Assembly (NCBI GenBank): GCA_003963405.1
Contig: RXIY01000037.1
Location: 1-46,515, forward strand
Source: Hyphomicrobiales bacterium
GTDB lineage: Bacteria; Pseudomonadota; Alphaproteobacteria; Rhizobiales; Beijerinckiaceae
Length of the DNA stretch: 46,515 nt
Reading direction: 5' to 3'
In this document: positions 33,527-37,437 of the stretch, one piece after another
How positions within the stretch are numbered: position 1 is the stretch's first letter
How the letters are laid out: every line of letters starts with the position of its first letter
Position numbers and translations under genes: made by a program
The notes under the pieces: generated by a model
Database searches by the model: none
The model's input: only the letters and a program-made list of their open reading frames with translations
Told to the model about the DNA's origin: nothing

Positions 33527-34870
33527 TCACCCCGCCGCCTTTCGCGCTCTCGCCGACTTGGCGGCCTTGCCCCGCAACAGCGCCATCAACACAGGCCCCA
33601 GGGAAAACTCCCCTGCCCGCGCCTTGGCCGTCAGTGCGCGCAAATAGCCGCCGGCGGATGTGATTTCGTCGCCCCGCTGCAGGATTGCGGCGATAACGAT
33701 CGAGGCGTCATGTTCGCCCATAACCTCAATCGCCTGCGCCCAGGCGTCGGGCGAGACGCCAAGGGCTGAACGAACCGTCGCGGCGGCCGTCGCGAGATCG
33801 CGCCACGACGAAATCTCTCCGCCCCTGGCGTAATCGACGATATCCGGACAGGCTTGCAGCACCATCCCAAGCGGATAGGTTCGGGGGGCTGGTGGTGACC
33901 CGGGATGGATGCGCGTTTCGGTTGCCTGCCGCTCAGGCTCCAATGCTCCTCCCCCATCGGCCGCCGCTTCCTTGCCGATTGGCCCGGACGGTTCGGCCCT
34001 GCCTTCGTGAAGGCTAGGTTCAAGATCAGAAATGTTTGTGGTTTGATTCTGTATGTGGCGCTCAGTCTGAGACTCATTGGCGCTCTTATTTTGGCGTTTA
34101 ACGTGGTTTTCCAGCGCACTATTGATTTCGGCCGCGAGCGCGGCGAGTTCCCCCGCCAAAGCCTCCAAATCGGTCCGCGTCATTTTTCGCGCCTGGCGGC
34201 TGGCAAGCGCCCGATAATCGCTGTGGCGGGTTTCCCAGTCGCCGCGAACGCCCTCTTCCATCCCAGTCTCGATCATTTTGGCGATGTCGCGCCGCGCCAG
34301 AGTAATTTTTTCGCGCAGCAGCGCCATCGCGCGGTTTTCGGCGCGAACCTCTTCGGCGAGATTTTCGATTTCGGTCGCGCGCGCAACGAGCGGTGTTAGG
34401 TCGAAGCCGTAGGCGTCCTCGATGGCGCCCCCCTGCCCTCTCCTGGCGAAGCGTTTGCCGTTGGGTGAGTCCCGGCGGATGATCAGTCCGGCGTCGACCA
34501 GCATGGCAATATGCCGGCGCAACGTGGCTGGGGCCATCCCGTGAGCGCGGATCGACAGTTCCTTATTCGACGGAAAAACGACGATCCCCGGGGCTACTCC
34601 GCTTTCCGAGACCCCCACGCCCTTCTCGGACAGCGTCAGCACCGTCTCCTGATGGAAGCTCAGCAGAGCGTGCAAAACCGATAACGCCCGGTCGGTGACG
34701 CCAAGCGGCGCTTTCGCCTCTGTCAGGGCCCGAAATAGCCGCCATTTGTGGACGACGATTTCCGCCGCGCCGGCGCGGCGCATGAAGTCTTTTGCGGTCG
34801 CCTGGCTCGCCACCATGGCAAGCGTCAGCGACCGCCGCCCGAAGGGCGTCGTTGAGCAATTTTGTTCCAT
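33527..34870 (-). CDS. repC: Plasmid replication initiator RepC
   Basis: RepC is the initiator of repABC replicons and normally acts on an origin inside its own gene. The 447-residue product starts MEQNCSTTPFGRRSLTLAMV and shows the winged-helix region typical of RepC: LGVTDRALSVLHALLSFHQE, ISVFPSNKELSIRAHGMAPA-type text (IVVFPSNKELSIRAHGMAPA), then TLRRHIAMLVDAGLIIRRDS. A C-terminal domain includes YPLGMVLQACPDIVDYARGG. The order repA-repB-repC on the minus strand and the 272-bp repB-repC gap are standard. Translation of RepC should be limited by the antisense RNA described at 34960-35021. No decay is seen, so this replicon is likely functional. Confidence 0.93.
   Translation of the reverse strand: MEQNCSTTPFGRRSLTLAMVASQATAKDFMRRAGAAEIVVHKWRLFRALTEAKAPLGVTDRALSVLHALLSFHQETVLTLSEKGVGVSESGVAPGIVVFPSNKELSIRAHGMAPATLRRHIAMLVDAGLIIRRDSPNGKRFARRGQGGAIEDAYGFDLTPLVARATEIENLAEEVRAENRAMALLREKITLARRDIAKMIETGMEEGVRGDWETRHSDYRALASRQARKMTRTDLEALAGELAALAAEINSALENHVKRQNKSANESQTERHIQNQTTNISDLEPSLHEGRAEPSGPIGKEAAADGGGALEPERQATETRIHPGSPPAPRTYPLGMVLQACPDIVDYARGGEISSWRDLATAAATVRSALGVSPDAWAQAIEVMGEHDASIVIAAILQRGDEITSAGGYLRALTAKARAGEFSLGPVLMALLRGKAAKSARARKAAG
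34020..34110 (-). other. AT-richer stretch within repC, possible replication origin
   Basis: In repABC plasmids the origin lies inside repC, often in an AT-rich part in its second half. Here the segment encoding NHVKRQNKSANESQTERHIQ and its continuation is visibly richer in A and T than the surrounding gene. It is only a candidate; no iterons are seen and the placement rests on family knowledge. Confidence 0.3.
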
Positions 34871-34929: not shown

Positions 34930-34958
34930 TTGACAAATTTTGTGGAGAGGCTTATTCG
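34930..34958 (+). promoter_or_regulatory. Promoter for the repB-repC antisense RNA
   Basis: A perfect -35 hexamer TTGACA (34930-34935) is followed after 17 bases by TATTCG (34953-34958) as a weak -10 element. It points on the plus strand, opposite to the rep genes, exactly where antisense RNA promoters lie in repABC plasmids. Confidence 0.55.
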
Positions 34959-34959
34959 T

Positions 34960-35021
34960 ATCTTCGCCAAAAGAACACGAAGGCTCTCGAGTTGGTTCGC
35001 CGCTTGGGGGCCTTTCTTTTT
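34960..35021 (+). ncRNA. Predicted counter-transcribed RNA (incA-type) between repB and repC
   Basis: The repB-repC gap of repABC plasmids encodes a small antisense RNA that limits RepC synthesis and causes incompatibility. Here a promoter-like pair (34930-34958) reads into a short segment ending in a terminator hairpin (34982-35021), which predicts an RNA of about 55 to 60 nt. Position, strand and length all fit the family. The start site is an estimate, and expression is not shown by sequence. Confidence 0.65.
34982..35021 (+). terminator. Rho-independent terminator of the antisense RNA
   Basis: GGCTCTCGAG (34982-34991) pairs over ten positions with CTTGGGGGCC (35003-35012), counting G-T wobbles, around an 11-base loop. 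TTTCTTTTT follows at 35013-35021. The plus-strand orientation suits the antisense RNA rather than the rep mRNA. Confidence 0.7.
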
Positions 35022-35102
35022 GCCGTGAGTTCCGTCCTCTATTTTCATTGTTCGGGCGATTGCCGTTTCTGATCAGCGGAAGCGCCGATCGTGAACGATG
35101 AA

Positions 35103-35128
35103 GAATCCTTGGCATCTGCCAAGGATTC
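35103..35128. repeat. 26-bp palindrome, copy 1, just downstream of repB
   Basis: Arms GAATCCTTGGCA and TGCCAAGGATTC are perfect reverse complements around a 2-base centre (TC). Copy 1 lies 15 bp after the repB stop, within the repB-repC gap. An identical-armed copy is at 35381-35406. The position and symmetry fit centromere-like (parS) sites bound by RepB, although the sequence is not the GTT(N4)GC-type consensus I recall for other repABC plasmids. Confidence 0.8.
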
Positions 35129-35142
35129 ATCTCGCCATCAAA

Positions 35143-36171
35143 TTACTCTTCACGCTCACTCGCAAAAAACTTGCTCATCAACGAAGGAAGTTCTGCACTT
35201 AGAAAAGTGGCGAACGCCTCCGAACGTGACTTTTCGATCGTCAGCCTTATTTCCGACGCCGAAAACGTGGCCCGGCCGACGACTTTCCCTGCAGGAGACG
35301 AAAGGTCGAGGCCCCTGCGCGGGCTCTCAGTCCGCTTTTTCACGGACTCCAGAGCGGCGCGGAAACGATCGTCGGACACAGAATCCTTGGCAGATGCCAA
35401 GGATTCTTTCAGGCGATCCAACGCGGTCGGGTCAGCGTTGACAGCGTTTCCAAGCGCCACCCAACGAGGTCGGCCGGCCTTTGGCGCTCGGCCAATCGCT
35501 AGAATTGTTTCCACGGAAAGGGCCCGGCAAACTGCACGGAATCGGGCTAACTCAGGATCGTCGATCGCGAGGGCAGAGCGGATGTCTCGTGCCTTTATCC
35601 CCGCTTCATCCATGCGCCATGCGAAGAGAGCCTTTTCAATCCAACTAAGGTCCTGACGCGCAGAATTCTCGATTCCTTGCGCGATGACCAGTTCCCGGTC
35701 ATTAAGGCTGGCGATCACCGCCTTGACGGTTATTCCAAGTTCCTTGGCTGCCCGCCAACGTCGATGGCCGTAAACCACTTGATACCGGTCAATGGCGACA
35801 GGATGCGGCCGCACTCCGATCGGAACCTTCTGTCCTTCGTCGGAGATAAGCTTTTTGAACTCCTCAAAATCGTGATTATCATCTTCCGGCAGACGATCGG
35901 GGTAGGGCGAAGGATCGACCAACGAAGGGTCGAGTTCTCGTATGCCGCCAGCCTCGAGTTGGGCCCGAAGCCTGTCCCGCTCCTCCCGGATATCAGTCAA
36001 AGTGCGCTGAGTGGCACCGATCACGCCTGCGCCGACACGCGAAACAGGTTGTGGTGTTTGTCCGAGCCGGGGTGAACCAGAGTTAGTTTCGTCATCTGGC
36101 TGTTCGGTCAGTCCCGCGGAGAGAGCGCTGAAATTCGAGATAATAGACTTTCTAGGAGAGTGTTTGCTCAT
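35143..36171 (-). CDS. repB: Plasmid partition protein RepB (ParB family)
   Basis: RepB binds centromere sites and works with RepA to segregate the replicon. The 342-residue product has the ParB nuclease-like N-terminal boxes (IGVRPHPVAIDRYQVVYGHR, then RWRAAKELGI; ENSARQDLSWIEKALFAWRM) and a central helix-turn-helix area (GIKARDIRSALAIDDPELAR). The C-terminal RepB region follows. ATG 36171 overlaps the repA stop by 4 bp (ATGA). A perfect 26-bp palindrome is embedded in the coding sequence at 35381-35406, where it encodes ESLASAKDS. The family and operon place are secure. Confidence 0.93.
   Translation of the reverse strand: MSKHSPRKSIISNFSALSAGLTEQPDDETNSGSPRLGQTPQPVSRVGAGVIGATQRTLTDIREERDRLRAQLEAGGIRELDPSLVDPSPYPDRLPEDDNHDFEEFKKLISDEGQKVPIGVRPHPVAIDRYQVVYGHRRWRAAKELGITVKAVIASLNDRELVIAQGIENSARQDLSWIEKALFAWRMDEAGIKARDIRSALAIDDPELARFRAVCRALSVETILAIGRAPKAGRPRWVALGNAVNADPTALDRLKESLASAKDSVSDDRFRAALESVKKRTESPRRGLDLSSPAGKVVGRATFSASEIRLTIEKSRSEAFATFLSAELPSLMSKFFASEREE
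35381..35406. repeat. 26-bp palindrome, copy 2, inside repB
   Basis: The same 12-bp arms as copy 1 (GAATCCTTGGCA / TGCCAAGGATTC) surround a different 2-base centre (GA). The copy lies in the repB coding region, where it encodes ESLASAKDS. It is centred 278 bp from copy 1. Conservation of a perfect palindrome inside a gene suggests selection for protein binding. Confidence 0.8.
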
Positions 36172-37379
36172 TGCCGCCCCCAGCTCTCGGCGATCAGAGC
36201 CCGGATACTATCGTTGACAGCATCCATGGACTCTCGCGCCCGGAGAAACGTGTCGCGCCCAATTTCACCGGACTCCAGTTCATAAAGGCTACGTTTTGCA
36301 AGGCCGGCTGCCTCAATGGCGGTGCTCTCTATCGCCGTCGGCATCAATACTTCATCCGCGAAGAGCAGTCGCAACATCGACACTATTTGCGCTTGAGGCT
36401 GATCATTTGGGTCATGTCGCGTGATGAGATAACGGAAAAAGTCCTGATTCAGAGTTGCCCCTGCCTCCTTAATGACTCCAATCAAGTCACTCATCATCAA
36501 TAGGAACTGGCTCATGGAGGCGACGTCGAGCATAGCGGGGTGGACCGTGACCACTAGTCCCGTTGCCGCGTAAATCGCGCCCAGGGTCAAGAATCCCAAT
36601 GACGGCGGGGTATCCAAGATAACTACGTCATAATCGACGTCTGCTTCAGCAATTGCCAGCCGAAGGCGCTCGAAGAACAACCCTCCAGAAGAACTGCGCT
36701 GCGCCAAAATACGCGGAATCTCGTGTTCGTATTCCATAACCTCAATATTTCCCGGAATAAGATCCACCCCCGTGAAATAGGTCTTCCGAATGATATCCCG
36801 GATCGGGCGCCGAAGGTCATCATGGCGTAACGCGGCATAGATCGTCTCGTTGTCGCCGACATCCATTTCAGGCTGGGCACCAAACATCGCAGATAATGAC
36901 GCCTGTGGGTCGAGATCGATTGCTAAAACACGATAGCCGTGGAGACCAAGATAATGAGCCAAGTGCAGACTTGTGGTCGTCTTGGCGCTTCCACCCTTGA
37001 AATTCGCGATGGCCAAGACCTGAAGATGTTCGCCCGGACGTCGACGCGGCAGAAACCGCAACGCCTCCAATGGCTTCTGTTCGGCAAAGAGGCGACGTAG
37101 CTCATTTATTTGCGTGAGCGTGTAAGCCCTATGATTATTCTCGAGACGAGCCGGTATTGGCCCTTTGCCTTCAATTGACATTGTCTTCAGTGTGGAAGCG
37201 GGAATTGATGTGAGCTTCGACACCTCGTTGGTCATAAAGTTGCGGAGGCTTTTTTCGGCATGCGGGGGGTACATTCTCTGCCGTAGAGCCTGCATTTGGT
37301 TAGAGAGCACGCCGGCGTGGCGGACAATCCTCTCCGCAGGATCTTCCCGTGCTGCAAGACGTCTCGCGACTTCAACCAT
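36168..37379 (-). CDS. repA: Plasmid partition ATPase RepA (ParA family)
   Basis: RepA is the Walker-type ATPase of the repABC partition system and also represses its own operon. The 403-residue product has an N-terminal helix-turn-helix region (RNFMTNEVSKLTSIPASTLK), a deviant Walker A motif at 128-134 (IANFKGGSAKTTTSLHLAHY), and RVLAIDLDPQASLSAMFG. Later come VDYDVVILDTPPSLGFLTLG and VTVHPAMLDVASMSQFL. Length and order are normal. ATG 37379 lies 18 bp after a strong hairpin (37398-37437) in the leader. Its end overlaps repB by 4 bp. Confidence 0.94.
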   Translation of the reverse strand: MVEVARRLAAREDPAERIVRHAGVLSNQMQALRQRMYPPHAEKSLRNFMTNEVSKLTSIPASTLKTMSIEGKGPIPARLENNHRAYTLTQINELRRLFAEQKPLEALRFLPRRRPGEHLQVLAIANFKGGSAKTTTSLHLAHYLGLHGYRVLAIDLDPQASLSAMFGAQPEMDVGDNETIYAALRHDDLRRPIRDIIRKTYFTGVDLIPGNIEVMEYEHEIPRILAQRSSSGGLFFERLRLAIAEADVDYDVVILDTPPSLGFLTLGAIYAATGLVVTVHPAMLDVASMSQFLLMMSDLIGVIKEAGATLNQDFFRYLITRHDPNDQPQAQIVSMLRLLFADEVLMPTAIESTAIEAAGLAKRSLYELESGEIGRDTFLRARESMDAVNDSIRALIAESWGRQ

Positions 37380-37397: not shown

Positions 37398-37437
37398 CTG
37401 ACGGGTGGAAGGCGCTTTGACGCCCTCCGCCCGTCAG
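37398..37437 (-). promoter_or_regulatory. Strong hairpin in the repA leader
   Basis: CTGACGGGTGGAAGGCG (37398-37414) and CGCCCTCCGCCCGTCAG (37421-37437) match as inverted repeats at 15 of 17 positions, the other two being wobble pairs on the minus-strand RNA, with a 6-base loop. It ends 18 bp before the repA start codon. It could be a RepA operator or an mRNA structure that limits repA translation. Confidence 0.6.

Follow-up and report, generated by a model that had tools for sequence, protein, structure and literature searches.

According to the accessible portions of the respective papers, the centromere (parS) of repABC plasmids follows a 16-bp consensus, GTTNNCNGCNGNNAAC, found in pAMI4 and others (PMC9040568), and in R. 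leguminosarum TA1 it is located inside repB on pRleTA1b and behind repB on pRleTA1c (PMC4492784). A more divergent palindrome, CCTGTCAGCTGACAGG of Sinorhizobium meliloti pSmeLPU88b, displaced a mini-replicon with that repABC when present on a cloned 0.7-kb fragment (PMC10194956). As this site is reported to be functional although it lies outside the consensus, functional sites are not limited to those that match it. Several repABC replicons per cell are known, and a 2018 review calls it open how coexisting RepA and RepB proteins act at their own and not at foreign sites (PMC6090056). For the related ParB and Noc proteins, R173 of ParB and Q158 of Noc have been described to contact base 1 of the site, which is G in parS and A in NBS (PMC7383237).

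In this study, we analysed two palindromes which are very probably parS sites of a repABC plasmid from a Methylocystis-type methanotroph. Sequence comparison further suggests that a single residue of RepB, residue 205, reads the outermost base that distinguishes the centromere type of this plasmid from the usual one.

Two inverted copies of one palindrome in a repABC operon

The window, i.e. the whole analysed stretch of 46,515 nucleotides, is contig C71 of a 4.64-Mb assembly with 122 contigs. Both palindromes sit in or beside a repABC operon, whose repA, repB and repC models all exceed their curated cut-offs (Table 1). A ParB fold with helix-turn-helix was recognised in RepB by TIGR03454 and by a profile match to ParB 6t1f (E 3.4e-17).

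Table 1 Features of the repABC operon and its putative parS sites (positions in the window).
Feature	Position	Strand	Details
Putative parS copy behind repB	35103..35128	.	16-bp core 35108-35123 (CTTGGCATCTGCCAAG on +), flanks GAATC/GATTC; exact search, 0 in shuffles
Putative parS copy inside repB (28 bp when the outer pair is included)	35380..35407	.	16-bp core 35386-35401; RepB residues 256-264
RepB recognition helix, repB codons 205-217	35521..35559	-	D205 codon 35557-35559, F211 codon 35539-35541
repA, ParA-type partition ATPase	36168..37379	-	TIGR03453 580.7 bits, cut-off 348.45
repB (P0001), ParB-type centromere-binding protein, 342 aa	35143..36171	-	TIGR03454 290.7 bits, cut-off 201.5
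repC, replication initiator	33527..34870	-	NF040974 495 bits, cut-off 150

An earlier note, made from the letters of this DNA, had described two perfect 26-bp palindromes with identical arms, regarded a chance origin as implausible, seen no other copy in the window and translated the in-gene copy as ESLASAKDS. All four points hold: the palindromes are present at 35103-35128 and 35381-35406, their 16-bp core thus occurring in two perfect copies, 100 dinucleotide shuffles of the window gave an expectation of 0.00, a third exact copy is missing from the window and from the whole assembly beyond it, and the translated peptide lies in the RepB frame. The arm of the in-gene palindrome reaches 13 once its outer pair is counted, while 14 bp (35129-35142) separate the downstream copy from the repB stop codon. 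When up to two mismatches were allowed in an 18-bp core, three extra places appeared, each with two mismatches, versus two for a reversed-pattern control. When the in-gene site was recoded at random with the amino acids kept, 12 of 12 positions paired in 21 of 20,000 synonymous variants. One argument had to be given up, namely that the different centres of the copies (TC and GA) point to binding of a dimer: read on the opposite strand, the second 26-mer is identical to the first, so that the copies are one sequence in inverted orientation and the argument fails.

Both sites are bounded by GANTC (GAATC/GATTC), which makes four GANTC sites over the two 26-mers. GANTC is the target of CcrM, and contig C43 of the same genome encodes a CcrM-like methylase that has a RAMA domain. 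This motif is common in the window (once per 366 bp) and rare in the 93 sites of the window's RepB group, where eight carry it, six of them belonging to the window plasmid and its 98% twin, the latter counted twice; GANTC on both arms is confined to these two plasmids. We hence keep the methylation idea as an observation only.

The twin is a plasmid of Methylocystis iwaonis with a repAB region 98% identical to that of the window, and the M. iwaonis genome (G177) belongs to the same genus. The genus search contained a single further genome of the species, G962; it gave no RepB match at E 1e-60, which suggests that the window plasmid is accessory. The genome under study contains seven additional RepB loci (E 1e-20), i.e. 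eight repB loci in total. Six of the seven carry parS sites of six distinct types (arms GTTGGCC, GTTGGGA, GTTCTCA, GTTGCCA, GTTAGCC and GTTTGCC), none of them the same as the window's; the 4-kb contig of the seventh has no parS site on it.

Inspection by eye revealed two further elements in the operon. A 40-bp imperfect inverted repeat directly upstream of repA (37398-37437; CTGACGGGTGGAAGGCG ... CGCCCTCCGCCCGTCAG) takes a position like that of RepA operators described in other repABC operons. In the gap between repB and repC (around 34931-35025, plus strand), a TTGACA-like box and a GC-rich hairpin with a T run resemble a counter-transcribed RNA gene; this element matched no Rfam family and is absent from the list produced by the scan.

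Sites at the same places in related repB loci

If the palindromes are centromeres, related repB genes should carry them as well, and the earlier note had named their enrichment there as the check to be made. We began with 12 related repB loci, all from named genomes. Palindromes with 7 of 7 pairs each were present at both corresponding places, with arms other than the window's (e.g. AAAACCTTGTCAGCTGACAAGGTTTT in Mesorhizobium and AAACCCTGTCAGCTGACAGGGTTT in Rhizobium). We enlarged the set to 67 loci whose RepBs share about 46% identity or more with that of the window in local alignments, near-copies included (L020 and L082, for example, are the same plasmid). An in-gene site was counted when at least 5 of 7 pairs and half the core were found at the aligned codons, a downstream site when the core was complementary. 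On these definitions the palindrome is conserved among related repB loci, being present inside repB in 43 of 67 and just behind it in 53 of 67, with both sites in 35 and neither in six, of which L094 (plasmid At of strain C58) is one.

In 33 of the 35 loci with both sites, the 14 arm letters are identical between the two, and the arms vary between lineages. Pairing the sites at random between loci (500 shuffles) gave 13.9 such loci on average and 22 at most. The centre is variable among the relatives (GC, GA, GG, AC, TC, CC and others). Base 5 is T in 34 of the 67 loci, G in 12, A in ten, unlabelled in ten and mixed in one (L093); nine loci besides the M. iwaonis twin have the G-type of the window. 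In most loci, pair 5/12 is either T-A or G-C, and RepB positions 259/261 correspondingly read S/D or A/A. This pair thus co-varies with residues that it helps to encode, which indicates that it is the symmetry of the DNA that is kept.

L093 is pSmeLPU88b, whose RepB falls in the window's RepB group. In its record, the published palindrome is located about 94 bp downstream of repC, and near the repB stop there is a second palindrome, which differs in base 5.

The comparison supports the centromere reading of the earlier note well: the places are shared, the two sites of a locus have identical arms, the arms are specific to the lineage, and the group includes a parS published as functional. It is because the pSmeLPU88b site is reported to be functional, and because parS locations inside and behind repB are known from TA1, that we confidently read the palindromes as parS. 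The note was also right that they miss the repABC consensus. By reading, the core CTTGGCANNTGCCAAG fits seven of the ten specified letters of GTTNNCNGCNGNNAAC, and no full match to the latter lies within the operon. The claim of a new specificity survived in part: the consensus is indeed broken, but the CTTGGCANNTGCCAAG-type also occurs in nine further loci of the group, in the near-identical Methylocystis plasmid and in one distant lineage (L132), a site from the wider group is already in print, and pRleTA1b and pRleTA1c already provide examples of sites inside or behind repB. One full match to GTTNNCNGCNGNNAAC exists elsewhere in the window, far from the operon (GTTTTCCGCCGGAAAC, 2355-2370); its arms pair imperfectly and it is thus probably due to chance.

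RepB residue 205 and base pair 1 of the site

An AlphaFold2 model places helices at residues 194-201 and 205-217 of RepB (pLDDT of the block 96-97), residue 205 being the first of the recognition helix. In a profile of 18 RepBs, position 205 aligns without gaps to R173 of Caulobacter ParB and to the equivalent Q of Noc; the single-sequence alignment is off by one residue here, hence the mapping rests on the profile.

We scored 186 RepB loci by the best-represented site per locus, a perfect site having 7 of 7 pairs, T at position 3, T or C at position 2 and C or G at position 6. With an acidic residue 205 (n = 72), base 1 was C in 57 loci and 15 had no perfect site. K or R at 205 without a following P (n = 102) went along with G1 in 76 loci, an A/G tie in two and no site in 24, while K or R followed by P (n = 5) gave A1 in two and no site in three. 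Among the seven loci with other residues, six were without a site and one showed a tie. The same relation was then tested by column in 155 non-redundant loci with a perfect site, of which 56 had only C1, 88 only G1 and four only A1, the seven mixed loci being left out. Residue 205 is acidic in 56 of 56 only-C1 loci and basic in 88 of 88 only-G1 loci, 144 loci together. Trained by class without L132 and L200, column 205 made no error and predicted both omitted loci (L132 was already known when the rule was written, L200 was not), whereas none of the other columns among the 342, by residue or by class, was both error-free and able to predict the two.

The rule was fixed, with its KP exception alongside, before 65 further loci were fetched. 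In this later set, K/R205 was accompanied by G1 in 15 of 37 loci (22 without a perfect site), D/E205 by C1 in one of eight (seven without) and KP by A1 in two of two, a result at odds with the plain K/R rule but in line with the exception; of 18 loci with other residues, one had G1 and 17 no perfect site. As 46 of the 65 loci lack a perfect site, this test is weak in numbers. Seven named plasmids gave G1 for K in two of two cases, C1 for D/E in three of four with one lacking a site, and G1 for the single Q.

There are exceptions. L171 combines D205 with two TTTGTTAACTAACAAA palindromes at +11 and +28 behind repB, and a looser scan assigned AGTCACAGCTGTGACT to L206 (E205), GTTTACAGCTGTAAAC, a G1 site present three times, to L196 (A205), and TTTGTCTGCTGACAAA, present twice, to L244 (A205). 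L270 has Q205 with a G1 site. In L139 (M205), base 1 varies between sites, with A, C and T ends, at nearly constant inner bases. Following from the exceptions of the looser scan, a residue 205 that is neither basic nor acidic predicts nothing and an acidic one does not always mean C. For five D205 RepBs (L153, L160, L162, L257 and L266) with the helix DDTLLSRML or DDSLLSRML, no recognisable parS was found in the fetched stretch. All four K205-P206 loci that have a site carry A1.

Some of these loci deserve a remark of their own. The sites of L139 look as if base 1 were no longer read. The K205-P206 RepBs of L178, L182, L204 and L229 carry ATTGTCAGCTGACAAT sites (A1), apparently a further specificity class. 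L200, L267, L268 and L269 are Rhodobacterales plasmids with E205 and CTTGACCGCGGTCAAG twice around the repB stop, L267 and L268 having a third copy further downstream.

But does this relation reflect recognition, or have residue and base merely been inherited together? The latter, with real parS sites and a residue-205/base-1 link owed to shared ancestry, strikes us as possible, though rather unlikely. In its favour, D205 is found in 54 of the 56 non-redundant C1 loci, these 54 belong to one clade, and the number of independent changes is small. In a tree of 40 rows, built without the helix and site columns and with 24 basic rows drawn at random, an acidic residue 205 requires three changes; a larger quick tree shows four changes of base 1 (scored as G or not) and three of K/R. 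The rule rests on about three independent changes, and with so few, sign tests and the independent-pairs test for residue 205 cannot reach significance. Against shared ancestry, a single acidic clade was rejected by the AU test (p = 0.00726), in which two L200-type rows were less than half filled and the group was named after the data had been seen. L132, with E205 and CTTGGCAGCTGCCAAG twice between repA and repB, is placed among K205 relatives with G1, its nearest ones being the Methylobacterium loci L264 and L265 (K205, GTTTGCAGCTGCAAAC; branch 100/97). L200 and its three plasmid relatives, all E205, have C1 as well, and the residue aligns with the ParB residue described as contacting base 1 (PMC7383237). 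Next to the window's own clade in the 40-row tree stand L029, L033 and L038, all with R205 (branch 93/97, not starred), and the L033 site GTTGTCAGCTGACAAC differs from the common site of the clade, CTTGTCAGCTGACAAG, at base pair 1 alone.

On balance, we lean towards recognition: the first residue of the recognition helix would read base pair 1 of parS (K/R for G, D/E for C, KP for A), and reversal of its charge on at least three occasions would have turned a site left unaltered in all other respects into a new, non-cross-reacting centromere (GTTGTCAGCTGACAAC to CTTGTCAGCTGACAAG). This could help numerous repABC plasmids to share a cell, as with the eight repB loci of this genome. We did not find such a residue-to-base code stated in open-access papers, and the rule would be the new part of this work, correlative and with exceptions, yet structurally plausible; the code may be partly known already.

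As for base 5, residue 211 is aromatic in ten of 11 non-redundant loci with G at base 5 and in one of 32 with T. Column 245 scores above 211 as a predictor of base 5, columns 98 and 163 about equal it, and the independent-pairs test had too few pairs, so that the link is only a possible one. Columns 259 and 261 are trivially linked to base 5 because the site itself encodes them.

Other readings, proposed mechanism and known systems

It is improbable that the palindromes are in the first place operators, at which RepB or RepA would regulate repB and repC as a repressor, and not centromeres. One copy does lie in the repB-repC gap, and the accessible text of PMC9040568 discusses whether parS copies at this place take part in regulation; however, parS inside and behind repB of TA1 is reported to cause incompatibility and described as unnecessary for strong repression (PMC4492784), about 2 kb separate the in-gene copy from the operon start, and a promoter scan of the stretch returned two promoter-like places versus 1.3 expected.

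Even less credit is due to a role in RNA, i.e. a hairpin behind repB acting as terminator or in the control of repC, with an accidental counterpart in the coding region. Neither copy is followed by a T run, the terminator scan omits both, the arms are the same in the coding and non-coding copies of one locus and nothing exceeded Rfam gathering scores, even though the transcript behind repB folds strongly (z -4.08). Outside the centre, G-T was seen in one of 231 in-gene and one of 322 downstream cells (seven pairs), a weak count because the sites had been selected for pairing. Two specific candidates were rejected: an intrinsic terminator (GC-rich hairpin plus T run), as the T run is missing and the scan does not list the sites, and Rfam BSnc120 (E 0.06; 23.4 bits versus a gathering score of 114). 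Insertion of a small palindromic repeat element unrelated to partition, which could account for identical copies and for one of them lying in a gene, is hardly conceivable with two copies in 4.64 Mb and with sites of other arm letters at the same places in distant loci.

Taking the palindromes as centromeres, a RepB dimer would bind each of them with one subunit per arm, and RepA would move the RepB-site complexes apart, giving a partition function. In this RepB, the recognition helix begins with D205, whereas K or R occupies that position in most other RepBs for which a site was recognised, and base 1 is C and not G; D205 may directly contact base pair 1. The likely history begins with a change of R or K205 to D together with GTTGTCAGCTGACAAC to CTTGTCAGCTGACAAG, presumably in this direction, followed by T to G at base 5, possibly tied to the aromatic residue 211, which would give CTTGGCANNTGCCAAG. 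The comparison thereby yields a prediction of a single residue and a single base pair, for which nature provides sister pairs. Centromere types and incompatibility groups might thus become predictable from repB sequences.

Compared with known systems, the sites would work like repABC parS, as a variant of the published consensus. They share with it the 16-bp palindrome in two copies in a repABC operon as well as T2, T3, C6, G11, A14 and A15, but have C instead of G at base 1 (and G instead of C at base 16), a centre other than GC and a longer palindrome of 26-28 bp. The pSmeLPU88b site has the RepB group, C1 and the core TGxCANNTGyCA in common with the window; in CCTGTCAGCTGACAGG, base 2 is C and base 5 is T, and the tested copy lies behind repC. 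The parS sites of pRleTA1b and pRleTA1c, which we liken to ours by location only, are of the same location kinds, their other copy sitting elsewhere. With ParB-parS and Noc-NBS, as far as described in PMC7383237, the window plasmid would share that the residue starting the recognition helix reads base 1; those systems are chromosomal, and the accessible passages on them do not mention an acidic residue paired with C1. Altogether, the two palindromes appear to be a known kind of element with a switched specificity, unusual yet explicable.
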